From: a virus
Virus record (IMG/VR): IMGVR_UViG_3300028103_000041
Span: 1 to 34,771 of that record
DNA length: 34,771 nucleotides
Reading direction: 5' to 3' (one strand)
The notes under the pieces were generated by a model. It saw only the letters and a program-made list of their open reading frames with translations. It was not told where the DNA came from and did not search any database. Positions 9,692 to 34,771 of the stretch are shown here, in pieces (the stretch's first letter is position 1; each line of letters begins with the position of its first letter). The translations under genes and the position numbers were made by a program.

Positions 9692-11776
9692 ATGGGCCTG
9701 CGTTATCTGGGCAACATCAACAAGCCGGGCTATAACCCGCTTGCATCGAATATCACGACCAGCCCGAATACTGTCCAGTATCAGGGCGTATTTACGCTAC
9801 AGCAGCAGGCACAGGCTATTACTACAGGGCAGTGGGCTACAGACCCTCTGTTTGACTACAGCACGTTGCTGCTTCAAGCTGACAACATCGCCAACGGTTC
9901 ACAGAACAACACGTTCTTAGACTCGTCTACCAACAACTTCACGATTACTAGGAACGGCAATACTACTCAGGGTGCGTTCACGCCTTTTAGTTTGCAGCCG
10001 GGTGCGTGGGGGAATTATTTTACTGGCACCAGCCACCTTGAAACTTCTTCTACAGCAGTATCAAATTTTGGAACCGGCGCGTACACGCTAGAGTGTTGGA
10101 TATACCCTGAGTCATTTACTGCCGGAGTGGTTCCTTTTATCTTCGGGTGCCCTGCTGTTGGTGGCCCTATTCAAATAAACATTAACTCAACGGGCACCAT
10201 AACCATAGCTGCATCGGGTGGTTCTAATGTGGCTACCTCGACGGGCGCACTGACTTTAAATACGTGGCAGCACCTAGCAATTGTAAGAACATCAACATCG
10301 ACAAACGGACTTGCTTTTTACATAAACGGTGTTTTAGCTGGTACTGCCACAGATGCTACTAACTGGTCTGCAACGCAGCCTTTTCGTATTGCTTCCTCCA
10401 GTTCTGGCGGGTCAGACTGGAGCTTTAAAGGTTACATGTCTAACGTTCGGGTATGTAAAGCCGCAGTTTATACTTCCGGCTTTATGCCTTCAAACGCGCC
10501 TTTTACAACAACGAGCCAAGGCGCATCTAGCTGCGTTCTTCTTTCCTGCCAAAATAACAGGTTTGTTGATAACTCGGCTACGGCTTCAACGTTTACTATA
10601 AACGGCTCTCCCTCCGTCCAAGCCTTCTCTCCGTTCGCCCCACAGTATCAGTGGACATCGAGCGTGATAGGTGGGTCTGGGTATTTTGATGGGACGGGGG
10701 ATTATGTTACTGCGCCCGCAAATGCCGCTTATGCAATGGGGACTGGGGACTTCACTATTGAATGTTGGTTTAATACTGCTTTAACGGGCGCTCGATATAT
10801 TTTTGATATGCGACCATCTGGCACGCAAGCTATCGGCGCTTATGTAAGCTCAAGCAGCCTTTACGTAAATAACGGTTCTACGCTTGACATATTGGCATCT
10901 TCAGCTTTTGTTTTGGGGGCGTGGAATCACTTTGCATATGTGCGTTCTGGCAGCGGAACAAATAATGTTTCTATATTTTTAAACGGGTCGCGTGTCTATC
11001 AAAGAACCGACACCACTAACTATTCTACTAATCCGATAGTTTATATTGGGACAGATAATACTGGTTCATACTCTAATGGTGGATATATCTCTGGGTTCAG
11101 GATATTAAAAGGTACAGCGCAGTACTCTGGGGCTACTTATACAATTCCAACAGCACCACCTACTGCAATCACCAATACTTCGCTCCTCCTCAACTTCACC
11201 AACGCCGGTATCTACGACGGCACGATGAAGAACGATTTGGAGACAGTCGGCAACGCACAGGTAAGCACCAGTGTCGTGAAGTATGGCTCAGGGTCGATGT
11301 ACTTTGATGGGAATGGGGATTATTTAAGACCAAACAGCGGCAATATTTTTAACTTCGGCACGGGAGATTTTACCGTCGAGTTTTGGCTGTACTTAAATGC
11401 TACAACAGCACAAACGTTCATCGATTGTAGACCGGGCTCTGCCGGTGATTACATACTATTTGATTACGACCCTACCCTGCGGTTGTATGTTGGGTCTACT
11501 ACGGTATTGTCTGGCAAATCATTGTCTACTGGACAGTGGTATCACATTGCTCTTGCTAGGTCTGGAAGCACGGTGAAATACTTTGTTAATGGAGTACAGG
11601 AAGCTAGCGCGACAATGACAACAAATCTTTTGAGTGCGTCTAATCCATATATTGGAAGTAATTATATCCCGAGCGCGTATCTTAACGGCTACATCGACGA
11701 CCTTCGCATCACCAAAGGCATCGCCCGTTACACACAGAACTTCATCCCGCCCAGCGTGGCACTGCCAAGGCAATAA
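9692..11776 (+). CDS. LamG-like adhesin / receptor-binding tail protein, three domains
   Basis: The 694-residue product has a short N-terminal part (GLRYLGNINKPGYNPLASNI, likely particle attachment) and three concanavalin-like LamG domains, about residues 105-270, 325-490 and 535-690. Each shows the family pattern: [YF]FDGTGDY, then GTGDFTIECW or GTGAYTLECW, later W-x-H-[FIL]-A-[YLI]-[VA]-R, an [IV][FY][VIL]NG strand, and closing Y[MI][SD][ND][VL]R or a similar strand. Conserved linkers (NNTFLDSSTNNFTITRNGNT; LLNFTNAGIYDG) lie between domains. LamG domains often bind carbohydrate, so a host-surface adhesin is the natural reading. No Cys-based or protease site is evident. Confidence 0.85.
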   Translation: MGLRYLGNINKPGYNPLASNITTSPNTVQYQGVFTLQQQAQAITTGQWATDPLFDYSTLLLQADNIANGSQNNTFLDSSTNNFTITRNGNTTQGAFTPFSLQPGAWGNYFTGTSHLETSSTAVSNFGTGAYTLECWIYPESFTAGVVPFIFGCPAVGGPIQININSTGTITIAASGGSNVATSTGALTLNTWQHLAIVRTSTSTNGLAFYINGVLAGTATDATNWSATQPFRIASSSSGGSDWSFKGYMSNVRVCKAAVYTSGFMPSNAPFTTTSQGASSCVLLSCQNNRFVDNSATASTFTINGSPSVQAFSPFAPQYQWTSSVIGGSGYFDGTGDYVTAPANAAYAMGTGDFTIECWFNTALTGARYIFDMRPSGTQAIGAYVSSSSLYVNNGSTLDILASSAFVLGAWNHFAYVRSGSGTNNVSIFLNGSRVYQRTDTTNYSTNPIVYIGTDNTGSYSNGGYISGFRILKGTAQYSGATYTIPTAPPTAITNTSLLLNFTNAGIYDGTMKNDLETVGNAQVSTSVVKYGSGSMYFDGNGDYLRPNSGNIFNFGTGDFTVEFWLYLNATTAQTFIDCRPGSAGDYILFDYDPTLRLYVGSTTVLSGKSLSTGQWYHIALARSGSTVKYFVNGVQEASATMTTNLLSASNPYIGSNYIPSAYLNGYIDDLRITKGIARYTQNFIPPSVALPRQ

Positions 11777-14025
11777 GGATAGGACATGAGCAACAAATAT
11801 CCCGGTGGAATAATTACTTCAGGTGCTGCGGCTGGGTACTCTGTCTTTTTTGATGGGACAGGAGATTATTTAACTTGGTCTGGTTCTACAGTTGGAACTG
11901 CTGCATATACATTTGAATGTTGGTTCAATGTTTCAAGTTTTACTGCATCACCTGACAACCAAATATGTTTGATTGGGCCTGATTCAACCGTAAATGGCGG
12001 GTTGAACATAAACATAACAAGCAGCACAAATGTAAACATTGATCGTTATGGTGTCAGTGCAGACTCTTACACGGTTGCAACAATGTCATTGAATACTTGG
12101 AACCACATAGCAGTTGTAAGAAATGCTAGTGGAGTAACCACTGTATTTTTGAACGGTGTCAGGTCATCGACTGGAACAAGAACTGATACATACAACTACG
12201 GAAATGTGAAATCTCTTGGTCGCGCAAGTAGTGGCGCTACGAGGTATTTTCCGGGGTACATGGCAAATGCAAGGTACGTCACTGCGGCTGTATATGACCC
12301 TACGCAAACCACAATCAATGTACCAACGCAGTTGTTCAATATTACGAATACACAACTGCTGACCTGCAACTCACCGGCTATCGTAGACCAGAGCAGCAAC
12401 GCTTTTGCCATAACATCTTATGGCGATGCCAAGGTCAGCACGTTCACGCCTTTCACCGGGTACACAGCTTACAACCCCGCACTGGGAGCATCGACCCCCG
12501 GCATATGGTCAGTGTCTGATGCTATACAAGCCCGGCAGACTCGTCGGTGGAACATGTACGACCCGTACTTCCAGAACACGACACTGCTGCTTCACGGTAA
12601 TGGCACGAACGGAGCGCAGAACAACACGTTCCTAGATAGCTCGTCCAACAACTTCAGCATCACCCGCAACGGCAACACGACGCAGGGTACGTTCTCGCCG
12701 TTCTCGCAGACGGGGTGGAGTAATAACGGGAATGGAACAAACTCGTATCTAAGCACGCCGTACAACGCAAATCTCTTGTTGAACGGCGTTGATTCCACGA
12801 TTGAGTGCTGGCTTTATTTGAATGCAACTCCGGGTGGACCGGGTTCCACTCAACCTATCATAGTGCAGGGTACCGGGTTCGTGGGTGGCGTATACGCAGC
12901 AAACTGGGCATTTTTTGCTGATTCAAGCGGCCTAAATTTTTACGGCCCTGGTGCGAGTGCCGCAACTATCCCGTTAGCCAGTGTTCCAATTAACCAATGG
13001 TTCCATGTTGCTGCTGTTGTTACGGCTGGCACGTCGGTTACTTTGTATTTAAATGGCGTTTCCACTGCCACGGCCTCAATTACGGCTATTGGTAACAATA
13101 CTGGGTACGCCAACAACATAATGGGGAATTTCTCTACCGGAGGCGGTGGAGGTACAAACAACTTCTTAAACGGTTACATCAGCAATCTTCGCGTGGTAAA
13201 GGGAAGTCGCGTTTACACCAGCAACTTCACGCCAAGCACGACCCCACTGACGGCAATCTCCGGCACTGCACTGCTCACCTGTCAGTCAAACCGTTTCATC
13301 GACAACAGCACAAACGCATTCGCCATCACGGTCAACGGCACCCCCTCCGTCCAAGCCTTCAGCCCGTTCTACCCGGTTGTTGCATACACGCCAGAGACTA
13401 TAGGCGGCAGTGGGTACTTTGATGGAAGTGGTGACTACTTAACTAAATCAAACATAAATTTTTCAACGAATGCGTTCACGATTGAAGGTTGGTTCTATGT
13501 AACATCTTCTGCTGCAAATGTTAATTATTGGGGTCAGGATAATGGCGGTGGAACAAATCCAAAAATGCTGCTGTACGGCGACAATTCCGGTAATTTTGTG
13601 TTTGAAACAGGGTCAGTTTCTGGAGCGGTTATAAGTGTATCCAGAACTACATATATTAAAGTAAATGCATGGCAACATATAGTTATTGCTAGAGGGGGCA
13701 CGGGCACCAATCAGACAGCCATGTTTATTGATGGTGTTAGAGTTGGTACAGGGACATGCGCTAGTTTAAGCGCAATTACTGCTGCTTTTAATCTAGGATA
13801 CATTGGTGAAGCATTCGGTGTTACGTTCAACGGGTATGTATCAGGTTTTAGAATAGTTAACGGTACGGATGTTTATGGCTATAGCAACACCACAATCACC
13901 GTTCCTACTGCACCCCCTACAAACATAACCAACACTAATACACTGCTTAACTTCACCAACGGCGGCATCATTGATGCCACTGGCAAGAACGTGCTGGAGA
14001 CTGTTGGTAATGCTCAGATAAGCAC
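9863..14025 (+). repeat. Conserved linker segments shared by the two LamG genes
   Basis: Three linker types occur in both LamG genes with high identity: (a) 9863-9990 and 12578-12708, encoding NNTFLDSS[TS]NNF; (b) about 10530-10640 and 13267-13375, encoding C[QV]-type NRF[VI]DNS and PSVQAFSPF; (c) about 11185-11270 and 13940-14025, encoding LLNFTN[AG]GI and ETVGNAQ[VI]ST. Domain sequences between linkers are much less alike. Confidence 0.75.
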
Positions 14026-14536
14026 AGCGCAAAGTAAATGGGGAGGAAGTTCTATTTTATTTGATAATGTTGATGATTGGTTATATACAGTAAATCCAGT
14101 AGTGCCAGCAACAGGCCAATTTACTATTGAGGCATGGATATACCTTAACTCAACAACTGACGAATTAATTTGGTCCCAATTTACTAATGCAGCAGCAGAC
14201 AGAAGTAGTTTAAGAGTCACTTCTGGAAAACTTGTTTTTTATAACATTAATACAAGTAACGTTTCATCAACAAATAATGTTTCAACTGGAACTTGGGTTC
14301 ATATTGCTGTTACAAGAGATTCATCAAATAATTTAAGACTTTTTATTAATGGAAATGTTGAAGCAACAAGTGCAAGTTATACATATAGCATTCAACAAAC
14401 AAGGGCAACTTTTGGCGCATTTTATGACAATAGCTCAGACTTTGATGGGTATATGGACGATATTAGAGTAACGGCAGGTTACGCTCGTTATACCGCAAAC
14501 TTTACACCGCAGACTTCGCAGTGGCAGGATCAGTAA
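11786..14536 (+). CDS. LamG-like adhesin / receptor-binding tail protein, four domains
   Basis: The 916-residue product carries four LamG-like jelly-roll domains, about residues 20-195, 315-485, 545-725 and 765-910, with the same landmarks as in the preceding gene (VFFDGTGDYL, YTFECWFN; STIECWLYLN; YFDGSGDYLT, FTIEGWFY; FTIEAWIYLN; W-x-H-[IV]-A-V or similar; NG strands). The conserved linkers are shared with the preceding protein. Domains 1, 3 and 4 are encoded by more AT-rich DNA than the linkers, most strongly the last one (about 14030-14480). The two genes are adjacent paralogues with different domain sets, probably two adhesins or two parts of one fibre. Confidence 0.85.
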   Translation: MSNKYPGGIITSGAAAGYSVFFDGTGDYLTWSGSTVGTAAYTFECWFNVSSFTASPDNQICLIGPDSTVNGGLNINITSSTNVNIDRYGVSADSYTVATMSLNTWNHIAVVRNASGVTTVFLNGVRSSTGTRTDTYNYGNVKSLGRASSGATRYFPGYMANARYVTAAVYDPTQTTINVPTQLFNITNTQLLTCNSPAIVDQSSNAFAITSYGDAKVSTFTPFTGYTAYNPALGASTPGIWSVSDAIQARQTRRWNMYDPYFQNTTLLLHGNGTNGAQNNTFLDSSSNNFSITRNGNTTQGTFSPFSQTGWSNNGNGTNSYLSTPYNANLLLNGVDSTIECWLYLNATPGGPGSTQPIIVQGTGFVGGVYAANWAFFADSSGLNFYGPGASAATIPLASVPINQWFHVAAVVTAGTSVTLYLNGVSTATASITAIGNNTGYANNIMGNFSTGGGGGTNNFLNGYISNLRVVKGSRVYTSNFTPSTTPLTAISGTALLTCQSNRFIDNSTNAFAITVNGTPSVQAFSPFYPVVAYTPETIGGSGYFDGSGDYLTKSNINFSTNAFTIEGWFYVTSSAANVNYWGQDNGGGTNPKMLLYGDNSGNFVFETGSVSGAVISVSRTTYIKVNAWQHIVIARGGTGTNQTAMFIDGVRVGTGTCASLSAITAAFNLGYIGEAFGVTFNGYVSGFRIVNGTDVYGYSNTTITVPTAPPTNITNTNTLLNFTNGGIIDATGKNVLETVGNAQISTAQSKWGGSSILFDNVDDWLYTVNPVVPATGQFTIEAWIYLNSTTDELIWSQFTNAAADRSSLRVTSGKLVFYNINTSNVSSTNNVSTGTWVHIAVTRDSSNNLRLFINGNVEATSASYTYSIQQTRATFGAFYDNSSDFDGYMDDIRVTAGYARYTANFTPQTSQWQDQ

Positions 14537-17922: not shown

Positions 17923-20238
17923 ATGCCATTAAAGAAACTTCTTTTCAAGGCAGGTGTAAACAGGGAAAACACACGATATACCAATGAGAATGGTTGGTAT
18001 GACTGTGACAAGGTCCGGTTTCGCCAAGGCACACCTGAGAAAATAGGTGGCTGGGAAAGAATTTCTGAGAACACTTTTGACGGTGTCTGCCGGTCTTTGT
18101 GGAACTGGTCAACTTTAAACAGCACCAATCTAATAAGCCTTGGCACGAACAAGAAGTTTTACATCTCTCAGGGCGGGGAATATTACGACATTACGCCCAT
18201 TCGGGAATCTGTCACGCTGACCAATCCCTTTGATACCACCAATGGCTCTTCAACTATCACCGTTACCGATGGTAATGGCGGGTATCAAGTTGGCGACTTC
18301 GTAACTTTCTATGGGAGTTCCGCAACAGGAAACCTGACCATTCTTGGCGAACATGAAATCCTTTCCATTAGCGGGAACGACTACACCATAGCAATGTCTT
18401 CGGATGTGGTGATTACGGCAGCAAGTCCTGCTGTGTTCACAGCATCGTTTAAACTAGCCAACAACACTCCGGTCGTTTTATCTACTACCGGGTCTCTCCC
18501 GCCTCCGTTTGTTGCCGGAACGACGTATTACGTTGTAAACACATCAAGCTATACGTTTAACCTAGCGGCGACTTCTGGCGGCACGGCTATCTCTGCAATC
18601 GGCAGCTCTCAGGCTGGATCTCACACAGTTACCGCCAAGGCAACTTCCACGGTGACCAATGGCGGCGGCACAGTTCAGGCTGTTTACCAAATCAACATTG
18701 GTTCAGAGATTGCTGTGCCTATTACCGGCTGGGGCGCTGGGGAATGGGGCTTTGGCGAGTGGGGGATTGGGACTACTTCTAATCAAGCATTGAGGCTTTG
18801 GAGCCAGACAAACTTTGGTGAAGACCTTGTTTTTGGACCACGGAACGGCAAGCTCTATTACTGGGATGCCAGCGTTGGTGTCTTTGGCACAACGGCTTCT
18901 ATTACCATCGCCAGCCCTGCGGTGATGACGACAGGATCGGTTTTAACCGATGGCATGGCAATTACCCTAACGACCACGGGAAGTCTTCCTACAGGGCTTT
19001 TACCGGGGGTTGTCTATTATGTGGTCAATGCCTCCGGGGTAACCTGTAACCTAGCCGCCACGGCAGGTGGAACGCCTATCAATACATCCGGAAGTCAATC
19101 TGGAACCCAGAGAATCTCTACCAGAGCGATTGCCGTAGAGGACATGAGCGGCGCGTCTAATGTCCCGCTCAAGCAAAACTATCTGACGGTCTCAGACATT
19201 AGCCGGTTCACCTTCTGCTTTGGCTCAAATGATTATCTTGGGACAACCTTTGATCCTATGTTGATCAGGTGGTCTGACCAAGAGAGCGTCACAAACTGGA
19301 CTCCCTCTGCGACCAATCAGGCAGGTAGTGTCAGGCTTTCTCATGGATCTCAAATTGTTACTGTTCTCCAGAGCCGACAGGAAATTCTGGTCTGGACAGA
19401 CACATCGTTGTATTCCTTGCAATACCTTAATCCTCCGATTGTCTGGGGTACCCAATTACTTGGCGACAACCTCTCCATCATCGGGCAAAACGCTACGGCA
19501 TTAGCCAGCGGCGTGGCTTTCTGGATGGGTGTGGATAAGTTCTATAAATACGACGGTCGCGTACAGACCCTGCGATGCGACCTCAGGAAGTTCATTTACA
19601 GCGACATTAATCTAGATCAGGCAGACCAGATATTTGCCGGAACCAATGAAGGCTTCAATGAAGTCTGGTGGTTCTACTGCACATCAGGATCAACCGTGAT
19701 TGACCGGTACGTCGTTTACAACTACGTAGAAGACATCTGGTACTACGGCGACCTTGGAAGAACAGCGTGGCTTGACTCCCCATATCAGCAGGGACCGTTG
19801 GCAACCACCTATATTAACAATACTGTAATCCACGAGATCGGCAACGATAATAAAGAGACAAGCTCAACGCAGCCTATTGAGGCATACATTAATTCTGCGC
19901 AGTTTGATTTGGATGACGGGCACAACTTCTCCTTTGTTTGGAGGGTTCTGCCAGACATTACCTTTGTGGGATCGACCGCCGACAGTCCAACCGCGACGAT
20001 GTATTTAAAGCCATTGAAGAATTCAGGCTCTGGATATACCACCCCGCCATCGGTGGGCGGCTATGCCAGCCATTCGGTTACAAGGACAGCGACTATTCCT
20101 ATAGAAGAGTTCACGGGACAGATTTACACGCGGGTCAGAGGCAGGCAGATGACGCTAGAGCTTCGGTCTACCAACATTGGTGTGGCATGGCAGCTAGGCT
20201 CCCCACGACTTGACATTAGACCTGATGGGCGCAGATGA
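17923..20238 (+). CDS. Large tail nozzle / DNA-stabilization-like virion protein
   Basis: The 771-residue product starts MPLKKLLFKAGVNRENTRYT and has the conserved N-terminus ENGWYDCDKVRFRQGTPEKI followed by GGWERIS, known to me from a large virion protein family of uncultured podovirus-like phages, sometimes annotated as packaged-DNA stabilization or tail nozzle protein. A beta-propeller-like body is suggested by blades such as LISLGTNKKFYISQGGEYYD, LVFGPRNGKLYYWDASVG, ALASGVAFWMGVDKFYKYDG, EVWWFYCTSGSTVIDRYVVY. Two similar beta-modules are inserted (residues about 167-239 and 330-400), and a WG motif lies near 270-283. The exact name is inferred. Confidence 0.75.
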   Translation: MPLKKLLFKAGVNRENTRYTNENGWYDCDKVRFRQGTPEKIGGWERISENTFDGVCRSLWNWSTLNSTNLISLGTNKKFYISQGGEYYDITPIRESVTLTNPFDTTNGSSTITVTDGNGGYQVGDFVTFYGSSATGNLTILGEHEILSISGNDYTIAMSSDVVITAASPAVFTASFKLANNTPVVLSTTGSLPPPFVAGTTYYVVNTSSYTFNLAATSGGTAISAIGSSQAGSHTVTAKATSTVTNGGGTVQAVYQINIGSEIAVPITGWGAGEWGFGEWGIGTTSNQALRLWSQTNFGEDLVFGPRNGKLYYWDASVGVFGTTASITIASPAVMTTGSVLTDGMAITLTTTGSLPTGLLPGVVYYVVNASGVTCNLAATAGGTPINTSGSQSGTQRISTRAIAVEDMSGASNVPLKQNYLTVSDISRFTFCFGSNDYLGTTFDPMLIRWSDQESVTNWTPSATNQAGSVRLSHGSQIVTVLQSRQEILVWTDTSLYSLQYLNPPIVWGTQLLGDNLSIIGQNATALASGVAFWMGVDKFYKYDGRVQTLRCDLRKFIYSDINLDQADQIFAGTNEGFNEVWWFYCTSGSTVIDRYVVYNYVEDIWYYGDLGRTAWLDSPYQQGPLATTYINNTVIHEIGNDNKETSSTQPIEAYINSAQFDLDDGHNFSFVWRVLPDITFVGSTADSPTATMYLKPLKNSGSGYTTPPSVGGYASHSVTRTATIPIEEFTGQIYTRVRGRQMTLELRSTNIGVAWQLGSPRLDIRPDGRR
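18421..19122 (+). repeat. Two copies of a small beta-module inside the nozzle-like gene
   Basis: Segments at about 18421-18639 and 18910-19122 encode the same module: a TTGSLP core, then a tyrosine-rich strand (TTYYVVNTSSYTFNLAAT / VVYYVVNASGVTCNLAAT), GGT-[AP]-I, and SQ-[AS]-G. Between them lies propeller-like sequence, so the module was inserted or duplicated within one gene. The two copies differ at DNA level. Confidence 0.8.
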
Positions 20239-21635
20239 GTACTCAAATTGTTACTACGGAATCAGTGGAACTTTATTCCACCAAGGCTCCTGCATTGCCG
20301 TTTGCGCCAAATGAATACAGCCGGGAATATCACAACCAGCTAAACAGTATTCTGCGTTTGTACTTTAATACACTTGATAACTTTTTGGCGCAGCTTATGG
20401 CTAACTCATCGACACTACCCATCTCAATCGGGGGCACCAATACGGATGCCTTTGGGCGGCTTCGAGTAAGTCAGCCATACACCCTGTTTGACAGCCAGAA
20501 CAGATACGCGGCTGACAATCAATTTGATATAGCTACAACCGGGACAGGCACAACTTCCTTCCTTTCTAATGAAGCAGCGGTGCAGATGCAGGTGACCGGC
20601 GTAGGTGTCGGATCTGTTGTCAGGCAGTCTTATCGGAGTTTCCCCTACCAGCCCGGAAAAGGCTTATTAATTCTTGCCACCTTTGTAATGGATGGGAACG
20701 CCAGTACAAATCTTACGCAGCGTGTGGGCTACTTCAACACTCAGAACGGGGTGTTCTTCCAACGTGTGGATGGTGTGTATTCGTTTGTCTTGCGTTCAAG
20801 CTCTACCCCAAATCCGGGAACCCCTAGCGATATACGCACGGTCAATCAAGATGATTGGAATGGCGACAAGCTAGACGGCACAGGTGCAAGCGGTTACACG
20901 CTAGATCCTTCCAAGGCACAGATTCTGTGGATGGACTTTGAGTGGTTGGGCGTAGGGTCTGTTCGTTGCGGCTTTATTATCAACGGCGAGTACATCGTTT
21001 GCCATACATTCAATAATGCCAACGACATCACATCCGTTTACATGACCACGGCGATTTTGCCTATTAGATATGAGATCACAAGCTCTTCAGCAATAGCGGC
21101 TTCAATGAAGTCTATTTGCTGCTCGGTGGTTTCTGAGGGTGGTTTTGAGCAGACATCGATTGACCATGTAGCGCGACGCACAACAGCGTTTTCCAACATT
21201 GATACAGCGGCAACCTTCTACCCGATTGTGTCGATTCGTCTTGCCTCTGGCAGAACAGGTGCGGTTGTATTGCCAAATCGTGTTCAGTTTCTACCCCTGA
21301 CTTCCCAGAACTATGAGGTGGTTCTGTTAAAGAACCCAACCTTAACGGGAGCAACATGGGCTGCTACGGTTCCTTCAGACAGCAATGTTGAATACGATAT
21401 TGCCGCTACAGCAATTTCTGCCACAGGAAGTATTGTGCAAACAGATTACGTGACCAGCACGGGAAGCGGCGGGGTTTCGCAAACCAGTGCGCCAACGGGA
21501 TATAACTGGGACTTGCAGCTAGGCGTGTCATTAACCAGTGTGAGCGACATTTACACGCTGGCAGTTAGAACAGTAGACGGTGCGACCAAGGGCAGTGGAC
21601 TTGGGTCGATCTCTTTCTATGACTTAACGCAATAG
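20235..21635 (+). CDS. Virion structural protein
   Basis: The 466-residue product starts MSTQIVTTESVELYSTKAPA. An N-terminal helix (EYSREYHNQLNSILRLYFNT, about residues 27-46) is typical of a family of phage virion proteins. It is followed by a beta-rich domain starting TNTDAFGRLRVSQPYTLFDS, a pattern also seen in large virion proteins, and a C-terminal domain with STGSGGVSQTSAPTGYNWDL. No enzyme motif is evident. The gene overlaps the nozzle-like gene by ATGA and precedes the internal virion proteins, so a tail or capsid-interior component is likely. Which one cannot be told from sequence. Confidence 0.75.
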   Translation: MSTQIVTTESVELYSTKAPALPFAPNEYSREYHNQLNSILRLYFNTLDNFLAQLMANSSTLPISIGGTNTDAFGRLRVSQPYTLFDSQNRYAADNQFDIATTGTGTTSFLSNEAAVQMQVTGVGVGSVVRQSYRSFPYQPGKGLLILATFVMDGNASTNLTQRVGYFNTQNGVFFQRVDGVYSFVLRSSSTPNPGTPSDIRTVNQDDWNGDKLDGTGASGYTLDPSKAQILWMDFEWLGVGSVRCGFIINGEYIVCHTFNNANDITSVYMTTAILPIRYEITSSSAIAASMKSICCSVVSEGGFEQTSIDHVARRTTAFSNIDTAATFYPIVSIRLASGRTGAVVLPNRVQFLPLTSQNYEVVLLKNPTLTGATWAATVPSDSNVEYDIAATAISATGSIVQTDYVTSTGSGGVSQTSAPTGYNWDLQLGVSLTSVSDIYTLAVRTVDGATKGSGLGSISFYDLTQ

Positions 21636-24600: not shown

Positions 24601-25576
24601 TCCTGAAACAAAAAAACAAGAACTTCTGACCAAGTTAGAAAATAATAAATTAACTCCGTCGGAAAATTTTAAATCTTCACAAACCAACATAGAAAGCTAT
24701 CAGGCAAAGCAAGAAAGCGGCACTGCTGGCGCTGGCGGGGGCTATGGAAGCGCATTCTCTTCCTTTGCACAAACTCCAACTGAAGAGTATCAATACGTAC
24801 AAAGCTACACCGATCCAACTTCATCATTGGATTTTTTGGTCAAGCAGTTTGCTTCAAATTCCTCTGTCATGAGCGACTATCTAAAAGATGCAGAGATAGT
24901 CTTAAGAAACAGCGGTATTTCTAACCCAAGCGCGGAAGACATTAGAAAAACCGGCATCAATATGATGCGCATGGATTTGGCAGGAGTTTTTGGCTCTACT
25001 ACTGGAGGCGCTACTACTGGTGGTGCAGGCACTGGCACACAAACCGGTGATGTAGCTGGCCCAGGATCTGGTACAGGATCTGGGGCAGGAATAGGCCCCG
25101 GAACAACGACAGGCGCTCCGGGAACCACCACAGAAGGTCCGGGAGGGCAAGGAACTGGGACTCAGGGCACTGGCACAGGGGATGCTGCTGCTCAAGCTGC
25201 TGCCCAAGCCGCAGCACAAAAAGCCGCATTGCAAAAAAGGCAGCAGACTTACAAAGCTCTCATGGGGATTGCGGCACTACCAGCTATTCAACAAGCTGAA
25301 GCCAAAACCTCTGGTCCCTCCGAGGCTTTCTATTATGGCAAGGAATTTAATGCTCCCACCCAGCAGATTGGTTCCAAGGGGGAATTAATTCAACAGCAAT
25401 ACCAACCTCTGAGCGTCACCATGCCGGGTAAAGAGCCTGAGTTTCTTAAGGCAAGGCAGGTTGTGCCCGGAGAGAAAACAGATGAAAATGATATATCTTC
25501 GTTAATTGGCTTGGGTGAGGATATTGATTTAAACGAGCTAATTGATATTTTAGGGCGAGGCACATATGGCATATGA
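21644..25576 (+). CDS. Large coiled-coil internal/ejected virion protein
   Basis: The 1310-residue product starts MAYTAVKLADVQKAIAAVTA. Residues 1-310 are an Ala-rich coiled coil with three exact-length 33-residue repeats at 61-159. About 410-540 is a globular domain (DNYNAFGWNVKSDGSS, GVSHAGWRGQ). Residues 550-645 are hydrophobic and Gly/Ala-rich (APVIQIASLVFAPQLGQALS) and could insert in a membrane. A Gly/Thr-rich low-complexity linker (about 1110-1195) and a short acidic end follow. This build fits a tape-measure or ejected internal protein; with no long tail genes, an ejected protein is more likely. GTTTAAAC lies directly before the start, with a weak AGG. Confidence 0.75.
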   Translation: MAYTAVKLADVQKAIAAVTAAQKKYTDAQASTKPSQTAVTTAQKALDAARSKLESLQAAFDDQSYLTKNSGYTNAQKASTAAEKALNNAREFLDSGKFLNDNSSYKNAVTAMQAAEKKLNEFRNYKDSGQYVNNNSGYKSALNNVSNAEKARDTAQRNLDNANDKNRASLERTLNSANTNLDRANQALDRAREAAERAAESNLQNLDKIFSASQTNVDKARQAAEKTAQASITSAEKTYNTSMTALDNARAAAERAYQNGTIKPAQAAFDKANTAFDTAQNKYQAVMDSIQPLVDQRNEAINNVGSYIDNIRGSLGDVTKFADAKSVQTLLGQIQTAVKNTKLDDLIKPVTSMISEIDPLKMANIPTVNLPKANPDYFTNIDQSTGLPLLDQGALDSVLNKYKSDTLNKDQYRDNYNAFGWNVKSDGSSVARGAAIFGLEKTQAYGGGVSYTGDFKKAAEQAGVDISGLKTNEEKYNAINDATKDFYVVANALDRTGAGANQKAPHAAILFKADGSGNLVPVTKPDGQLAANYFDAVGVSHAGWRGQLAELAPVIQIASLVFAPQLGQALSSALSGIQVGTAAAVAPTAFTVGAPATAITLGQVVGQTGISALTSSIMNGGMAALTGGDVSKAMQAGLVSGAVSANTSDIAKTVMGGGATGEANIKELARISNLSVDQTEKIIASGVTSGLASTISDPSNIGENIAYSIVGNFASEEAKNFITGRIDPKSLNGLETFASNAAGVAATAAARGDDVVKALENAGKSLAINAARAQKNYVPPVGSGASGFPLTQRDADAEIQDYYDAIIASDFDENAVEQIKQAIPNISNEDALRIAQSLSGNYAKFLQDTQIGPATAELTGELQTQLKTLQPGTENFNRDFNRLVEKEIDLGNEGNFRKNDDGTLVNVTNPKVSWFKDANGDWRFVDNRVKALFGIGTPDPNSPYATLSSAYGTGGASGGDAEDFVLIARDKLGEDAAKQFIDLSPIPETKKQELLTKLENNKLTPSENFKSSQTNIESYQAKQESGTAGAGGGYGSAFSSFAQTPTEEYQYVQSYTDPTSSLDFLVKQFASNSSVMSDYLKDAEIVLRNSGISNPSAEDIRKTGINMMRMDLAGVFGSTTGGATTGGAGTGTQTGDVAGPGSGTGSGAGIGPGTTTGAPGTTTEGPGGQGTGTQGTGTGDAAAQAAAQAAAQKAALQKRQQTYKALMGIAALPAIQQAEAKTSGPSEAFYYGKEFNAPTQQIGSKGELIQQQYQPLSVTMPGKEPEFLKARQVVPGEKTDENDISSLIGLGEDIDLNELIDILGRGTYGI
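21824..22120 (+). repeat. Three tandem 99-base coding repeats (33 residues each)
   Basis: Residues 61-93, 94-126 and 127-159 of the large coiled-coil protein align without gaps: D[DS][GQ]-x-[YF][LV]-x-[KND]-NS-[GS]-Y, then x-[NK]-A-rich helix with AEK. The period of 33 is three 11-residue or close to a nine-turn coiled-coil unit. DNA copies have diverged, so the array is not recent. Confidence 0.8.
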
Positions 25577-26327
25577 TTGGAGCGGGAACTACATCCCAGA
25601 CCCCACAACTTCCACTACCGGTGGATCTACTACCGGCTCCTCCTCAAGTATTGGGGACTTCTTCTCCAATATCTCTAGCGGGAACTGGGGTAATGCTTTA
25701 AACACTATCGGCAGTGTCCTGTCCGGCGGTTCCGGGATAGGGACGCAGATTGCCGGTGTGGCTGGGTTGTCCTATCTTTTAAATCAGCTTGGCGCTGGAG
25801 GTGGTGGAACTCCCTATCGCGGTTATACAGGTGGCATCCCAACCTACACCGCAACAAGAGAGCAGACCCCTTACTCCACATCAACGATGACAACCGCAGA
25901 AGGCAAGGTTGTTCCTCGTCGTCCCGGTTCTGGCGGTATTACCTACTTTAAACCTACAACCTACACCAAGGCTGCTGAAGGCGGTCTTATGGATGGTTTC
26001 CCGTCTGAGAATATTATTAGGATGAATGAGGGGGGTATCTCTTCCCTTGGCGGGTATTCAGATGGCGGTCAGCTACTAAAAGGTCCCGGTGATGGGGTCA
26101 GCGATTCTATCCCTGCCACTATTGGAGAGAAACAACCTGCCCGTCTTGCTGATGGCGAGTTTGTTGTCCCGGCGCGGATTGTTTCAGAACTAGGCAATGG
26201 AAGCACAGAAGCAGGAGCAAGAAAGCTCTACGCCATGATGGAACGTATCCAGAAGTCCCGTGGCAAGACGGTCGGCAAGAACAAGGTTGCCGTCAACTCA
26301 AAGGCAGATAAACATTTGCCCGCATAA
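25566..26327 (+). CDS. Virion protein with GPGDGxSDSIPA motif
   Basis: The 253-residue product starts MAYDWSGNYIPDPTTSTTGG, overlapping the previous gene by 11 bases. It has a Ser/Gly-rich N-terminus, a hydrophobic middle (IGTQIAGVAGLSYLLNQLGA, about residues 60-79), Gly-rich motifs (AAEGGLMDGF, MNEGGISSLGGYSDGG) and the signature GPGDGVSDSIPATIGEKQPA followed by RLADGEFVVPARIVSELGNG. I recall that signature from many phage tape-measure or internal virion proteins. It ends basic (KSRGKTVGKNK). A role in DNA ejection or in the virion interior is inferred. Confidence 0.75.
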   Translation: MAYDWSGNYIPDPTTSTTGGSTTGSSSSIGDFFSNISSGNWGNALNTIGSVLSGGSGIGTQIAGVAGLSYLLNQLGAGGGGTPYRGYTGGIPTYTATREQTPYSTSTMTTAEGKVVPRRPGSGGITYFKPTTYTKAAEGGLMDGFPSENIIRMNEGGISSLGGYSDGGQLLKGPGDGVSDSIPATIGEKQPARLADGEFVVPARIVSELGNGSTEAGARKLYAMMERIQKSRGKTVGKNKVAVNSKADKHLPA

Positions 26328-26336
26328 GGAAATATC

Positions 26337-27152
26337 ATGGCAGATACCACTTCCACTGGCGTGACTGGAACAACCAACGCCCCAAACACCTCTCAAAGGG
26401 TAGGTTCAGAATCCTCCACCCTATCTGAATGGGCAGGTCCTTATGTAACGGAGATGCTTGGCAAAGCCAAAGGGCTTGCAGAGACTCCGTATCAGATCTA
26501 CCAAGGACCCATGACTGCCGGTCCATCCGACCTACAGTCAAAGATGTTTCAAGGTCTGGGGAGTCTGTCGTACCCTTCGTTGCTTGGGAAATCCTTTGGT
26601 GATGTTTCCCAGCAATACATGAACCCGTATCTTCAGTCGGCTCTTCAGCCTCAACTGGATGAACTGCGCCGTCAATCTCAAATTACCCAAATGCAGAACG
26701 CTGCCAAGGCAACTGGAGCAGGGGCTTTTGGTGGCACCCGTCAAGCTTTGATGGACACCGAGACCCAGCGGAACCTGATGCAAGAGATGAATAAGACTGT
26801 TGGTCAAGGGTATGCCACGGCGTTTGATAAAGCCATGCAGCAGTTTAATCAAGAACAAGCCCAAGCCAAGACCCTGTCAGATATTCTGGGAGAGGCAGGA
26901 AAGTCCCAAAGAGACATCGAACAACAAGGTGTCACGGCAGATTACAACGAGTTTCTTGCCCAGCGCGACTACCCACAAAAGATGCTTCAGTTCCAGCAGT
27001 CCATGCTACAGAACCTTCCTATCTCCACGGTTAGTTATGCGCCGGGTCAGCAAAGCAATCTTGGTCAGTTTTCCTCGACCGTTGGTGGTCTAGGTAGTCT
27101 GCTGGATTCCTTGAAGGGTCTGGGCGTGAACATCGGATCTATTGCCAAATAA
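26337..27152 (+). CDS. Internal virion protein-like
   Basis: The 271-residue product starts MADTTSTGVTGTTNAPNTSQ after AAGGAAAT. The middle is helical and Gln/Met-rich (PYLQSALQPQLDELRRQSQI, then GAFGGTRQALMDTETQRNLM), which resembles an internal or ejected protein family in uncultured podovirus-like phages. The C-terminus (SNLGQFSSTVGGLGSLLDSL) is Gly/Leu-rich. No enzyme motif. It lies between two proteins of the same type and probably belongs to one functional block with them. The name is tentative. Confidence 0.7.
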   Translation: MADTTSTGVTGTTNAPNTSQRVGSESSTLSEWAGPYVTEMLGKAKGLAETPYQIYQGPMTAGPSDLQSKMFQGLGSLSYPSLLGKSFGDVSQQYMNPYLQSALQPQLDELRRQSQITQMQNAAKATGAGAFGGTRQALMDTETQRNLMQEMNKTVGQGYATAFDKAMQQFNQEQAQAKTLSDILGEAGKSQRDIEQQGVTADYNEFLAQRDYPQKMLQFQQSMLQNLPISTVSYAPGQQSNLGQFSSTVGGLGSLLDSLKGLGVNIGSIAK

Positions 27153-28626: not shown

Positions 28627-31600
28627 ATGGCGCTCTATCAGATTAAAGCACCTGACGGAAAAACTTATCGTATTGAGGGTCCTGATGGAGCTTCTCAAGA
28701 TGATGTTATCCGCGCAGTCGTAGCCCAGCATCCTTATGCTGGTTTCACCACAGAAGAACTCAAGGATCAGCCCAGAGCGCCGATGTCTTTAAAAGACACG
28801 GCTAGAGCCGGGTTGGCAAGTCTTGTTGGTTCTGCTGGGTCGATTGCGTCTGCGTTTGGTGCTGAGTCTGCCCCTGCTAGAGGTCTTAGGGAGTACGCTG
28901 CTGAGATTCAGGCAGGGATGTCGCCGGAGCGTTTGGAAGAGATGCGCCGCCGTGAAGAGATAATGAAGCGGGCAGGAGAACAGGGCGTTGGATCTGAGAT
29001 CATGGCAGGTCTAGGAGCGGTCGCTGAAGCTCCCCTCCAATCCACCGTCTCAGGTATTGCGTCTTCTGTCCCTGCGATTGGCGCTGGTCTTGCTGCGATG
29101 GTTGCGTCTGCTCCCTTGGCGATTGCCAGTGCAGTTGCGTTTACAGCAAGGCTTGCCTTTGGTGCCCTACAAGGAGCTGGTGAAGCTAAAGGGAACATCT
29201 TTGATTCCGTCACCCAAAAACTGATGGATGAGAAAGGTTTGTCTCGTGCAGATGCTGAAGCCCAAGCCACCAAAGCCCAAGAATATCTAAGCTCTAATGC
29301 CCCCGGAATCATGGGCAGTGCTGCTGCCGGGATGTTGGATGCGGTGACCGGCGTGGAATCTGTTTTAGGAAAGACAGCCAAAGCCAAGCCAGCTACCCGC
29401 CCGTTAACCCAGCCTAGCCGTTTAAAAACAGTTGGCGGCGCAACTTTGGAAGAAGCCATCCCAGAAGGTATTCAAGGCGGGGTAGGTCAGATTACCGAGA
29501 ACGTCGCGCTACAGAATGCCGGGATCAATACCGACACCTTCTCTGGTGTGGCTGGAGCCGCTGCACGGGATGCCTTGATGGGTGCCCTAACCGGTGCGGC
29601 AGTCTCTCCTCTCCAGTTATCTCAAGCCCGCAGGGAATACGAGGTAGAGAAGCAACGCGAGAGAGATGAAGCCGCCGCCAAGCTAGACCAAGAGATCGCC
29701 CAAGAGCAAGAAACCCTGCGTCAAGAACAGGAAGCCAAACAGCAAGCCGAGGAACAGGCAGTCATGTCTGCCCCGCCGGTAGAAATCAAGGCTCCGACTA
29801 ACGTCCATCCCATCCGTAATCCATTGGGGGACATCTCCAAGGAAGATCTACAGGCAGAGGGGATTGACCCTTACCTGAACCAACACATTGATGAGTACCG
29901 CAAGACGGTGGGTCTGCCCCCGATTAAGAGCTACTCCATCGAGGACATTGCTGATGCGATGCCCGGTGTAAACCCGGCAGAAGAGCAAAAACAGATAGAC
30001 ACCATCCTTAACTCCCGTACCGGGTATCAGGGTGAGCGTTTAACCGCACGGGATGTGATTGACCAAGCGCAGGCTAAACAGATCCCCACAGACCAAGCTT
30101 TCACGGACTTCCTGACCCGAACCACCGGGACGGGGGATCTGAACTCCATGTCCCAGCCGCAGCTATTTGCTGCGTTTAAATCTATCCAAGCCCTGCCGGA
30201 GAAGGCGGAGCTGGAGACAGGAACGAATGCCATAAGGTTTACAGATCAGCAATACAACGCTGCGATTAAGTCTTTGGACAAGACGATGGGTGACAAGCCC
30301 ATCCTGACCGCAGAAGCCTTGTCGGATATTCGCCTCTCCACCGGACTAAAAGAGGATGCCTACGCCAAATCGATTCTGGACGAGGCGGTACGCCGTGGGG
30401 ATGTGGATAGGCAGGGAGACCAAATATCGCCTCCTACGAGCGCCGCAGTCCTGCCAAAGGGCTACAAGATCCAAGAGGGCATGTTTGAGCGGGGCGAGAA
30501 GCCAGAGGGCTACCAAATCCAAATGGGTGATATCACCTTGCCTGAGGTGTATGCGACCGAGGAAGAGGCTAACGCCCGGTCTCAGGAGTACGTCAAGGGT
30601 CAGGGTAGGCTGGTCAAGGAAATCAACAACCGGATTGAGCAGAACGAAACGACCCTGCAAAAGGCTGAAGAGAAGTTAACCAACATGCAACTTGCTGGGC
30701 AGACCGGCATTGAGTACGACAAAGCCCAAGCCACCCTTGGGAAAATCCGTGTCAAGGTTGCTGAGAATCTTGATCGTTTAAACAAACAGCTTGAACGCGT
30801 AGATCCGGAGAAGGCTCCTGTCTCTGTAATCAAGGCGAAGGCTAAACGGGTCAAGGGCAAGGGCTATACCCTGTTCAAGGACAACAAGGCGGTTCAGGTA
30901 TTTAAATCGCGGGACGAAGCCGAGCGGGCAATTGTCCAAGGTCTGCCTGAGGAAGAGATCCAAGCCCTAACCCAAGCCAAGGGTCGCCGCACCCTAAAGC
31001 GCAGGGCAGAGGAAGAGATCCAAAGAAAGGCAGAAGAGAAGCGCAAAGAAGAATACGCCTCCGTAAGCCAAGTCCTTGAGAACAAGGTAAAGCCACCTCT
31101 ACGTGCGTTGCTTGACCGGTTTGGTCTAAAGGATGTCGCGCTAGAACTTGAGAAGGACATGAAGGCAGAGGGGGAGTACTCCAAGTCTGTCATCAAGATC
31201 GCCCTTGATTCGGCTAACCCTATCAGAACCCTGCGCCATGAGTCCATCCATGCCTTGAAAGAGTTGGGATTCTTCACGCCCCAGCAATGGAAGGCGTTGG
31301 AGAGAGAAGCTAAGACCAAGTGGATAGACACCTACCTCAGGCAAAGAAACATCAATGGTGACCCCCTAGAGGCTGGTCAGCAGTCCCGGTATGACGCATA
31401 CATGAGCGTCTATAAGGGAGACCAGAACGCCATTATCGAAGAAGCCATCGCAGATGCCTTTGGCGACTTTGACATGACTAAAGCCCCTCCGGGGATGATG
31501 TCTGCCATCTTGAAGCGTTTAAAGCTGTTCTTTGAGGCGCTGAAAAATGCTTTTGCCGGGGCTGGGTTCCAGACCTCCGAAGACATCTTTGGCAAAGTTG

Positions 31601-34600
31601 AGCGCGGTGCACTTAAACCGACCAAGCAAGTTGTTAAACCATCCGAGCCTAAGTTTGATCAAAACGATGCTTGGCGTGCTACCCCCCAAGAACGTGAAGA
31701 AGCCTTGGACATGTACGCCACGGACGGATTCTTGCCTTACACATCACAAGGGCGTTTAAACGTACCTATCGATGAGGTTAAATACTCGTTACAGAAGTAC
31801 AACCCTGAGAAGCATCTGTCCTTTGACCCGGCGTTAAATCTTCCCATCAATAAGGACGGGACGATCACCCTGTACTACCACACCACCAAAGATGAGTCTT
31901 TGGCGATTAACAGTACCAAGGTTATCCCGGCGCAGGGTCGGAACCGAATCCATTTAACCAATGAATCCTCTGGAGCCAAGATCTTGGTTGAGAAGGGGGA
32001 CATGGAACAGGATGTGGATGGCAGCACCGTCTTGGTGTATGTCACCCCAGACATGTTGCAGGTAGACAGAATGTACGACGATGGCAGGGTGGATGTGTAC
32101 ATCCCCGTTGCTCAAGGGGAGTACTTCAACAAGAAGATGAAGCAGCATTCCATCCAGAAGGCTAGGTCGGATGCTATTGCCAAGTCTTTTAGTTATGACG
32201 ACCATGAGAAACGTATTACGGATGCCATAAAACAATACAAAGCTGCCACCGTTGCTGAAAGAAAAACTTTAGTAACCAATGCAAGAAAATTGTTGAAACG
32301 GGAACATAATGTTGGTTCCTTATTAACGGAGAACGGTAAGCTAGAGAAGACTCGTATTGGTGATTACAACCTTAACTACGATGGGTTGCCTGTTGCTTCT
32401 CAGGGTTTAGGTTTGGCTTCTGCCCAGAAGATTACTGAAAAGACTTCTACCTGCCCTCGTTCTGCCATTTGTGAAGGTCTTTGCTTGGGCGAGACATCTG
32501 GCGGGAACTTCATGTTTGGCGGCGCGGCGGCTGAAGACGTTGGCAGCATCAACAAAAGTTCTTTCCGCGCAGGGGCAAGGATGGTTCAGTACCTAAAGAC
32601 TGAAGCATTGATTGTGAACCCAGAAGCTTTTGCGGTCATCCTACAGTCAGAGATTGACTCCCTGAGAAAATGGTCTGCTTCTCCGACTGTCCGCAAGAAG
32701 AACGCGGAAACCGGGAAAATGGAGAACATCGCCAAAGACATCTACGCGCCCGCTGTGCGTTTAAACGTCACATCCGATTTCAAGCCCAGCATGTTCCGTG
32801 GCGTTATAGACGGCAACAAGGATGTGATGTTCTATGACTACACAAAGATAAACAGCGACTCTATTGCGCCCAACCATCACCTGACTTATTCCTCCACAGG
32901 ATTTGGTCAGATTGTTGACGGCAAGCCCGTGTTCTTCAAGAACAAGGCTGGCAGGTACGACCACAACTGGGAGACAGTGAAAGACCGTTTAAACAATGGT
33001 TTCAATGTGGCGATGGCTTTCTCAAGCAAGTCTGCCCTGCCCAAGTTTTTGAAAGACGAGAAAAGCGGCAAGACCTATCGCATCTTGGATGGTGATCTGT
33101 ACGATGCCCGTTATCTAGACCAGTACAGTAAAGAGAAGGAAGAGTCTGAGGGTGCCGGGGTCATTGTTGGATTACGCAACAAGGCAGGTACATTAAGCGA
33201 GAAGAACGCCACAGAGAAGACCGATGGTTTCTTTGTTAAATACAACCCGGAAGATGGAGACACCGTCGTTGTTCCAGATCAGGATCAGTTTAAAACGGCA
33301 GAGCCACCACAGCCTGAACCGATTAAAACAATTCCTATCGCCAAAAAGAAATTTAGCCTACGGGATACAAAAGAGTTTAAACAGTGGTTTGGCGATAGCA
33401 AGGTTGTTGATGAAAACGGCAACCCGCTTGTTGTGTATCACGGCACAGGCAAAGATTTTTCAGAGTTTAAATACGACCCAAAGAAAGCTTTGGGAATATG
33501 GACATCTAGTGACCCCAAAGTTGCTTCTGAATATGCTGATATATCTGGCAGATATGTTGGACATCCATCTGTCATGCCTTTGTATCTTTCTCTTAAAAAT
33601 CCTGCCACAAGAAAAGATTATCTAGAAACAAGAAATATTGCTCAAGCGCAAAGTGAAAAAACAGGATGGGGCGATCATGATGCAAGACACAGAAAATTAC
33701 TTCAAGATCGTGGTTTTGATGGAGTAAATTTGGGCGAAGGTGTGTACATCGCTTTTGAGCCAAACCAACTCAAATCTGCCATTGGCAATGTAGGCGCATA
33801 TGACATAACAAACCCTGATATTCGCTATAGCCTACGCGACACGCCACAATTTAAACAATGGTTTGGCGACTCGAAGATAGTCAACGAAGATGGCACTCCC
33901 AAGGTCATGTACCACGGGACTGCGCGTGACATTACTGAGTTCCGTCCCGGACAAGCCAATGCGATCTTTTTGACTGACGATCCTAAATTTGCCGAGAGCT
34001 TTTCGAGCATGTCCGAAGATCGTATGACTTTCGATTTGGCTCAGCAGTTGGATGAGGACCCAAAAGCCAAGCGCGATTTGTTAATTCCTATTATTGACCA
34101 AGCAATCAAAAACAAGGACTTGGGGACTGATAAAAATTCTCGTGGTTTAATTAAGACAACAAGAGAAGAGCATATAAAAAATTACATGGGGTTGCCTCTG
34201 GATCGAGCAATGAATACAGTTGGCATCGGTGATGCGCTACGTGCAAAAATTAAAGAACAGCTCCCTTCTCGCGGAAACATCATTCCGGTTTACGTCAGTG
34301 CGCAAAACCCATTTGATTTTGAAAACCCGGCTCACATTAAGCTAATTAGTAACGAACTTAATTTTAAACCAGACGTTCTTGATAATGTTATTTATGACAT
34401 AAAAAATGGAGAGTGGTCAACCATTGAGTCTGGGGCTGTTCAAGACGCTATACAGTTTGTTGGGTTTGATTCTTTTTATGTTAAAGAAGGTGGTGTAAAG
34501 AATCTTGCTGTTTACAATCCAGAGCAGTTAAAGTCTGCCACTGGCAATGTAGGCACGTTTGATAAGTACAACCCTGACATTCGTTACAACCTGCGTAACA

Positions 34601-34771
34601 CCACTGACCCTGCCATCATGGCTGATGTGGACAGGGTGACTACGGCTCGTGTTGAGCAAGGGTTTGTTGAGCGCATAACCAATGCTCTTTCCCCGGAGTC
34701 CTTCTCCTACTTCCGCGAGAAGGCTTTAAACCGGTACAACCGACTGGGTGAATACGACAGGGCGCTTGTGC
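28627..34771 (+). CDS. Giant polyvalent-type protein: zincin, gp88-like and two ART-like domains (3' partial)
   Basis: ATG 28627 begins a frame of at least 2048 codons that runs off the window. Domains in order: N-terminal MALYQIKAPDGKTYRIEGPD with a GASQDDVIRAV helix; hydrophobic region about 128-185; coiled coil about 336-380 and again near 657-725; zincin-type peptidase with HESIH (871-875, HExxH) and Glu938/Glu939 in EEAIAD; a divergent ART-like YYHTT (1083-1087) with Glu1165; a Cys domain C1276-x5-C1282-x3-C1286 with RLNVTSDF and YDYTK (1378-1407), like phage gp88; two tandem ART-like domains (YHGT at 1604-1607 and 1762-1765). This is the build of phage polyvalent proteins, thought to enter the host with DNA and counter defences. 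Activity and delivery are inferred. Confidence 0.85.
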   Translation, partial: MALYQIKAPDGKTYRIEGPDGASQDDVIRAVVAQHPYAGFTTEELKDQPRAPMSLKDTARAGLASLVGSAGSIASAFGAESAPARGLREYAAEIQAGMSPERLEEMRRREEIMKRAGEQGVGSEIMAGLGAVAEAPLQSTVSGIASSVPAIGAGLAAMVASAPLAIASAVAFTARLAFGALQGAGEAKGNIFDSVTQKLMDEKGLSRADAEAQATKAQEYLSSNAPGIMGSAAAGMLDAVTGVESVLGKTAKAKPATRPLTQPSRLKTVGGATLEEAIPEGIQGGVGQITENVALQNAGINTDTFSGVAGAAARDALMGALTGAAVSPLQLSQARREYEVEKQRERDEAAAKLDQEIAQEQETLRQEQEAKQQAEEQAVMSAPPVEIKAPTNVHPIRNPLGDISKEDLQAEGIDPYLNQHIDEYRKTVGLPPIKSYSIEDIADAMPGVNPAEEQKQIDTILNSRTGYQGERLTARDVIDQAQAKQIPTDQAFTDFLTRTTGTGDLNSMSQPQLFAAFKSIQALPEKAELETGTNAIRFTDQQYNAAIKSLDKTMGDKPILTAEALSDIRLSTGLKEDAYAKSILDEAVRRGDVDRQGDQISPPTSAAVLPKGYKIQEGMFERGEKPEGYQIQMGDITLPEVYATEEEANARSQEYVKGQGRLVKEINNRIEQNETTLQKAEEKLTNMQLAGQTGIEYDKAQATLGKIRVKVAENLDRLNKQLERVDPEKAPVSVIKAKAKRVKGKGYTLFKDNKAVQVFKSRDEAERAIVQGLPEEEIQALTQAKGRRTLKRRAEEEIQRKAEEKRKEEYASVSQVLENKVKPPLRALLDRFGLKDVALELEKDMKAEGEYSKSVIKIALDSANPIRTLRHESIHALKELGFFTPQQWKALEREAKTKWIDTYLRQRNINGDPLEAGQQSRYDAYMSVYKGDQNAIIEEAIADAFGDFDMTKAPPGMMSAILKRLKLFFEALKNAFAGAGFQTSEDIFGKVERGALKPTKQVVKPSEPKFDQNDAWRATPQEREEALDMYATDGFLPYTSQGRLNVPIDEVKYSLQKYNPEKHLSFDPALNLPINKDGTITLYYHTTKDESLAINSTKVIPAQGRNRIHLTNESSGAKILVEKGDMEQDVDGSTVLVYVTPDMLQVDRMYDDGRVDVYIPVAQGEYFNKKMKQHSIQKARSDAIAKSFSYDDHEKRITDAIKQYKAATVAERKTLVTNARKLLKREHNVGSLLTENGKLEKTRIGDYNLNYDGLPVASQGLGLASAQKITEKTSTCPRSAICEGLCLGETSGGNFMFGGAAAEDVGSINKSSFRAGARMVQYLKTEALIVNPEAFAVILQSEIDSLRKWSASPTVRKKNAETGKMENIAKDIYAPAVRLNVTSDFKPSMFRGVIDGNKDVMFYDYTKINSDSIAPNHHLTYSSTGFGQIVDGKPVFFKNKAGRYDHNWETVKDRLNNGFNVAMAFSSKSALPKFLKDEKSGKTYRILDGDLYDARYLDQYSKEKEESEGAGVIVGLRNKAGTLSEKNATEKTDGFFVKYNPEDGDTVVVPDQDQFKTAEPPQPEPIKTIPIAKKKFSLRDTKEFKQWFGDSKVVDENGNPLVVYHGTGKDFSEFKYDPKKALGIWTSSDPKVASEYADISGRYVGHPSVMPLYLSLKNPATRKDYLETRNIAQAQSEKTGWGDHDARHRKLLQDRGFDGVNLGEGVYIAFEPNQLKSAIGNVGAYDITNPDIRYSLRDTPQFKQWFGDSKIVNEDGTPKVMYHGTARDITEFRPGQANAIFLTDDPKFAESFSSMSEDRMTFDLAQQLDEDPKAKRDLLIPIIDQAIKNKDLGTDKNSRGLIKTTREEHIKNYMGLPLDRAMNTVGIGDALRAKIKEQLPSRGNIIPVYVSAQNPFDFENPAHIKLISNELNFKPDVLDNVIYDIKNGEWSTIESGAVQDAIQFVGFDSFYVKEGGVKNLAVYNPEQLKSATGNVGTFDKYNPDIRYNLRNTTDPAIMADVDRVTTARVEQGFVERITNALSPESFSYFREKALNRYNRLGEYDRALV
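33349..34590 (+). repeat. Tandem duplication of ART-like domains
   Basis: Two adjacent segments (about 33349-33840 and 33823-34590) code for homologous domains. Both begin with [KR][FY]SLRDT, FKQWFGDSK and VxYHGT, and end with PxQLKSA-x-GNVG and NPDIRY. The second carries an extra insert of about 75 residues. The domains have diverged, and the duplication is therefore not recent. Confidence 0.8.

Follow-up and report, generated by a model that had tools for sequence, protein, structure and literature searches.

How a single polypeptide chain that joins several unrelated effector domains could give rise to separate effectors is the question raised by the last gene of the virus record IMGVR_UViG_3300028103_000041, whose entire length of 34,771 bases constitutes the window analyzed here. 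Reading of the open reading frames confirmed that an ATG at position 28627 opens a frame of 2048 residues that is still open at the record end (34771), as the initial annotation had claimed. The frame is not broken in related phages: the protein is complete in two IMG/VR relatives, at 2831 residues in the near-identical phage L003 and 2673 residues in L006. In both L003 and L006 the C-terminus, which lies beyond the end of the window, carries an LPD38 domain (E about 1e-38). Because LPD38 is reported only from phage-type polyvalent proteins (PMC5512222), the giant protein is a phage-type polyvalent protein, a known kind; the initial annotation had reached the same reading, to which the several unlike domains and the LPD38 of the complete relatives now lend support. 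The genes considered here are:

17923..21635, plus strand: virion structural genes, a stabilization-type protein and its neighbor (PHROGs; comparison with DSL-LC04)
25566..27152, plus strand: two genes upstream of the giant gene, a probable internal virion block (DSL-LC04 matches, E 2e-10 and 9e-10)
28627..34771, plus strand: gene for the giant polyvalent protein (2048 residues, running off the record; complete in L003 and L006)

The structural genes of the window are similar to those of DSL-LC04 and HMO-2011-like phages, with the second gene in 17923..21635 sharing 69% identity with its DSL-LC04 counterpart; a DNA polymerase A was not found in seven relatives. The two genes at 25566..27152 match the DSL-LC04 gene annotated as ‘tail tape measure’ and the gene that follows, with their order preserved; the giant gene occupies the slot of the DSL-LC04 gene annotated as ‘DNA transfer protein’. 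From this gene position, we infer that the giant protein is packaged in the virion, ejected with the DNA, and so delivered at infection. Elsewhere in the window, two adjacent genes (9692-11776 and 11786-14536) encode tail-fibre-like proteins with C-termini that match the same PHROG baseplate families, as if they had a common tip domain.

Within the giant protein, the following domains and motifs were located:

31072..31581, plus strand: zincin-like peptidase domain, residues 816-985 (invariant HExxH and EE; AlphaFold2 model; no PDB fold match)
31237..31251, plus strand: HESIH, residues 871-875, predicted zinc site (motif; invariance in relatives)
31438..31443, plus strand: Glu938-Glu939, predicted third zinc ligand (motif; invariance in relatives)
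31789..32226, plus strand: YYHTT domain, residues about 1055-1200, a weak ART-like fold (fold match; catalytic residues not conserved)
32314..33246, plus strand: GP88 domain, residues about 1230-1540, with CX5CX3C (Pfam PF17338; invariant cysteines)
33367..33822, plus strand: ART-PolyVal copy 1, residues 1581-1732, an exchangeable cassette (Pfam PF18760; replaced in L003, absent from L004 and L006)
33838..34581, plus strand: ART-PolyVal copy 2, residues 1738-1985 (Pfam PF18760; His1763 and Asp1948 kept)
34597..34771, plus strand: start of the C-terminal module, which ends in LPD38 in complete relatives (comparison with relatives)

All motifs lie where they had originally been placed: HESIH at 871-875, EE at 938-939, C1276/C1282/C1286, SDF at 1383-1385, YTK at 1405-1407, YYHTT at 1083-1087, and YHGT at 1604-1607 and 1762-1765. 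The proposed Cys-rich gp88-like domain matches PF17338 above the Pfam cut-off (E=7.9e-8, 32.9 bits vs. 24.4), and its cysteines C1276, C1282, and C1286 are invariant in 59 aligned sequences. These are the only three cysteines of the whole 2048-residue protein (window 32452-32484), and the CX5CX3C pattern that they form recurs in each of the 80 GP88 ORFs found, including those that stand alone; together this suggests a metal or iron-sulfur site. The GP88 profile had no match in the PDB. The YYHTT domain, taken earlier for a divergent ART, matches two Rhs ART toxin structures among the top three hits (prob 0.87-0.96, E 0.03-0.07), although Glu1165 is a glutamate in only five of 20 relatives and the YYHTT histidine is a proline in seven of 20. 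It is therefore doubtful that the domain is an active ART, and what is retained of the earlier reading is a weak fold resemblance.

The two clear ART-like YHGT domains correspond to two copies of ART-PolyVal (PF18760) above the Pfam cut-off (E=9.5e-41), both of which retain the family His and Asp; the Tyr of the H-Y-D triad is unplaced in the alignment. The interior of copy 2 (window 33992-34473) is not alignable with L003 at the DNA level, its flanks being 87% and 96% identical, and the inside of this copy therefore varies, besides the set of cassettes described below. ART-like domains also occur in large proteins of other phages: in Dolichospermum phage Dfl-JY45 (L266:11539-18702), a 2387-residue protein annotated only as hypothetical contains the YHGT ART domain four times, and Limnohabitans phage DC33 (L270; PQ492659), filed under Inoviridae, has a 39 kb genome and a 3125-residue ART-PolyVal-like protein. 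The Inoviridae taxonomy of the latter looks wrong.

Alignment of near-complete proteins, followed by a scan of each border, uncovered a pentapeptide with the core [KR]-x-S-L-[RK] that sits where one cargo module meets the next. It occurs at four positions in the window:

31780..31794, plus strand: border peptide 1, KYSLQ (1052-1056), Q variant (scan; conserved in GP88-type relatives)
33349..33363, plus strand: border peptide 2, KFSLR (1575-1579), strict (scan)
33823..33837, plus strand: border peptide 3, RYSLR (1733-1737), strict (scan)
34582..34596, plus strand: border peptide 4, RYNLR (1986-1990), N variant (scan; identical in L003, L004, and L006)

Two of these sites are thus strict and two are variants, one ending in Q and one with N replacing S, both conserved in close relatives. 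The limits first drawn for the ART domains (1576-1735 and 1736-1985) coincide with border peptides, whose recurrence had gone unnoticed. Across 80 proteins that contain both the zincin-like domain and LPD38 (non-redundant at 85% identity; expected counts obtained by shuffling), [KR].SL[RK] was observed 249 times between the two domains vs. 8.0 expected and was present in 79 of the 80 proteins, while it occurred at chance elsewhere (observed/expected of 3/2.9 before the zincin, 0/0.9 inside it, and 4/3.7 in the C-terminal module). When 4-mers that recur inside a protein were counted de novo, KLSL, RYSL, and YSLR ranked first. The serine is essential, since replacement by T, N, or A gave counts of 2/7.6, 4/6.9, and 8/11.9 (observed/expected), and acidic ends showed no enrichment. 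In 28 of 79 proteins, no more than 30 residues separate the first site from the end of the preceding zincin alignment, and the distance is almost always 18-27 residues.

Proteins that have one of the same domains and lack this zincin-like domain contain the core peptide at or below chance (0 vs. 1.3 expected in 39 GP88 proteins, 1 vs. 1.8 in seven LPD38 proteins, and 1 vs. 0.9 in five ART-PolyVal proteins), an absence that is partly confounded with phylogeny, as these zincin-free controls are phylogenetically distant. Other large ORFs in the same loci (n=112) contain three copies vs. 3.6 expected, and the border peptide is absent from the 9126 residues of the other window proteins. Two further candidates were rejected: the border peptide is not a mere ART tail, given that only 62 of 298 sites follow one, and RFSI/RFAI peptides near stand-alone GP88 proteins, considered as the same signal, are near chance (9 vs. 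4.5).

The site-to-site segments group into 52 families, many of steady length, and combine into 70 architectures in 79 proteins. GP88 units, which run from the YYHTT domain through the end of GP88, measure 483-524 residues in 18 of 18 cases and have no internal site. Cargo named by Pfam comprises ART-PolyVal, GP88, DUF7178, and topoisomerase IB, most other modules being unnamed, and sub-threshold matches include RelA/SpoT, GNAT, and ddrB-ParB. Individual site-bounded modules match topoisomerase IB (L087:5018-5779; 8e-19), GNAT acetyltransferase (L087:2927-3466; 7e-4), and RelA/SpoT (L189:10574-13684; 1e-4).

Comparison of close relatives reveals whole-module exchange at the sites. In the long blocks that align upstream of the cassette, DNA identity between the window and L003 is 97-99%; homology then ends at 33366, three bases past KFSLR, and is regained at 33835, within RYSLR. 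In place of ART copy 1, L003 carries an unrelated module of about 200 residues, so that between these two phages a whole module is swapped exactly at the border peptides. In L004 and L006 the cassette is missing and a single KLSLR joins the flanks. The nearest relative of ART copy 1 is a cassette of L042 (65%), while the GP88 units of these two proteins are only 51% identical. When all proteins are considered, 30% of homology-block ends lie no more than five residues from a site, vs. 6% for random positions.

On balance, we lean towards the reading that the giant protein is a virion-borne, polyprotein-like effector that would be cut at the border peptides, most likely by its own zincin. The exchange of cassettes at the sites would also be expected if the pentapeptide were a linker or recombination seam only, with modules shuffled at similar linker ends and a protein that works uncut. 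The residues at position 2 are similar within a protein (0.49 vs. 0.32), as copying would give, and an uncut chain has a precedent in the N4 virion RNA polymerase, reported as packaged unprocessed in PMC5512222. Against a mere seam, the codons of the peptide differ from site to site within one gene, the peptide is common to 172 upstream and 129 downstream flank clusters, its serine and basic ends are strictly retained, and GP88 and ART-PolyVal domains in zincin-free proteins do without it. Its absence from the controls and from other proteins, its occurrence at 141 junction types, and the codon variation within a gene suggest that selection acts on the peptide itself and that the sites are not copies of one DNA segment, and we consider a seam without cleavage unlikely.

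If the sites are cut, the zincin-like domain is the probable protease, because it is linked to them in cis and they often start 18-27 residues behind it. Three observations speak against this assignment. Position 2 of the site shows no covariation with the zincin after correction for LPD38 divergence (partial r -0.015), and such covariation, considered as proof of cutting by the zincin, is therefore unsupported; Ruegeria 45A6, a more distant phage, has a zincin-like domain in a protein with no border peptides; and the domain matches no solved zincin. The first two of these would fit true cleavage by a phage head-maturation or host protease, the zincin being itself an effector against host proteins, a role for zincins that is considered in PMC5512222. 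Against such a protease, the border peptide is missing from other virion proteins of the same phage, and sites lie only behind the zincin, never ahead of it above chance; we judge this alternative improbable. In bacterial genomes this zincin occurred at three loci only, two of which lay on fragments shorter than 4.5 kb, and prophages therefore did not supply an independent test.

The nature of the peptidase was evaluated from its sequence and predicted structure. The His, Glu, and His of HExxH and the downstream EE pair are invariant across 76 diverse relatives, and the AlphaFold2 model of the domain is mostly confident and nearly all-helical. A Foldseek search of this model against the PDB found no solved zincin and nothing at E below 0.8, a zincin profile gave only chance matches in the PDB, and trustworthy matches in a viral structure library were only polyvalent and crAss-type RNA polymerase proteins. 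Because no solved zincin fold was matched, ‘zincin-like’ is a motif-based call, made from HExxH...E and the matches to other polyvalent proteins; the signature in the initial annotation is upheld by its invariance, but the fold has no PDB counterpart. The missing fold match and the nearly all-helical model could mean that the domain is not an active peptidase and that the peptides are docking or ejection signals, which the invariance of the predicted zinc-site residues in sequences this diverse makes very improbable.

The self-cleaving, polyprotein-like effector would be ordered as an N-terminal region, the zincin-like peptidase, interchangeable effector modules, and a C-terminal LPD38 module. 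In the window protein the effector modules would be ART-fold plus GP88, ART 1, and ART 2, each bordered by a degenerate pentapeptide. The chain would be packaged and then ejected together with the DNA, and the peptidase would cut at the pentapeptides to free separate effectors, with predicted products of about 1-1054, 1055-1577, 1577-1735, 1735-1988, and 1988 to the end. Whole-module swaps at the sites would bring in new effectors. That phages of one clade deliver a genuine polyprotein in this way, with its own zincin cutting [KR]xSL[RK] and the signals doubling as cassette-exchange seams, has in our estimate about an even chance of being correct.

Phage-type polyvalent proteins as described in PMC5512222 share LPD38, a zincin-like peptidase, ART, and many unlike domains per chain with the giant protein, and Iyer et al. 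2017 proposed in the same source that peptidases process polyvalent proteins. Its available text mentions neither GP88 nor a cleavage signal, and the recurring site peptide and site-to-site cassette swapping set the present proteins apart. No cleavage signal of polyvalent proteins came up in a literature search that ran mostly without subscription papers. What appears new is the border peptide, together with its strict placement and the exchange of cassettes from site to site. With ART-PolyVal proteins the giant protein shares the domain, present here in two copies with the family His and Asp, but ART-PolyVal proteins that lack this zincin-like domain have no border peptide. GP88 proteins such as mycobacteriophage gp88 share the domain and cysteine pattern; they usually stand by themselves, have about 400-1100 residues, and lack border peptides, whereas GP88 is here fused behind an ART-fold-like domain in a giant protein. 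Many phage contigs (L115-L179) were recovered in which GP88 is part of a smaller protein of its own, mostly of 400-1100 residues, with neither zincin nor border peptides.

Eukaryotic viral polyproteins consist of one chain with an internal protease and a recurring site between products. The likeness to the giant protein in these three respects is an analogy only and implies no common descent; the products here would be ejected effectors, whereas eukaryotic viral polyproteins yield a replication set. If true, the proposed system would be a phage equivalent to eukaryotic viral polyproteins. As far as the literature searched shows, its cleavage signal would also be the first to be defined in polyvalent proteins, for which it has been a matter of conjecture since 2017 how one chain becomes effectors with different targets. 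A strongly enriched and exactly placed short peptide leads to testable predictions of cut sites, product sizes, and the effect of a catalytic mutant, and it gives a simple rule for dividing many giant phage proteins into effector modules. Of 30 module samples scanned against Pfam, more than half had no family match, and these modules may therefore hold unknown anti-host activities.
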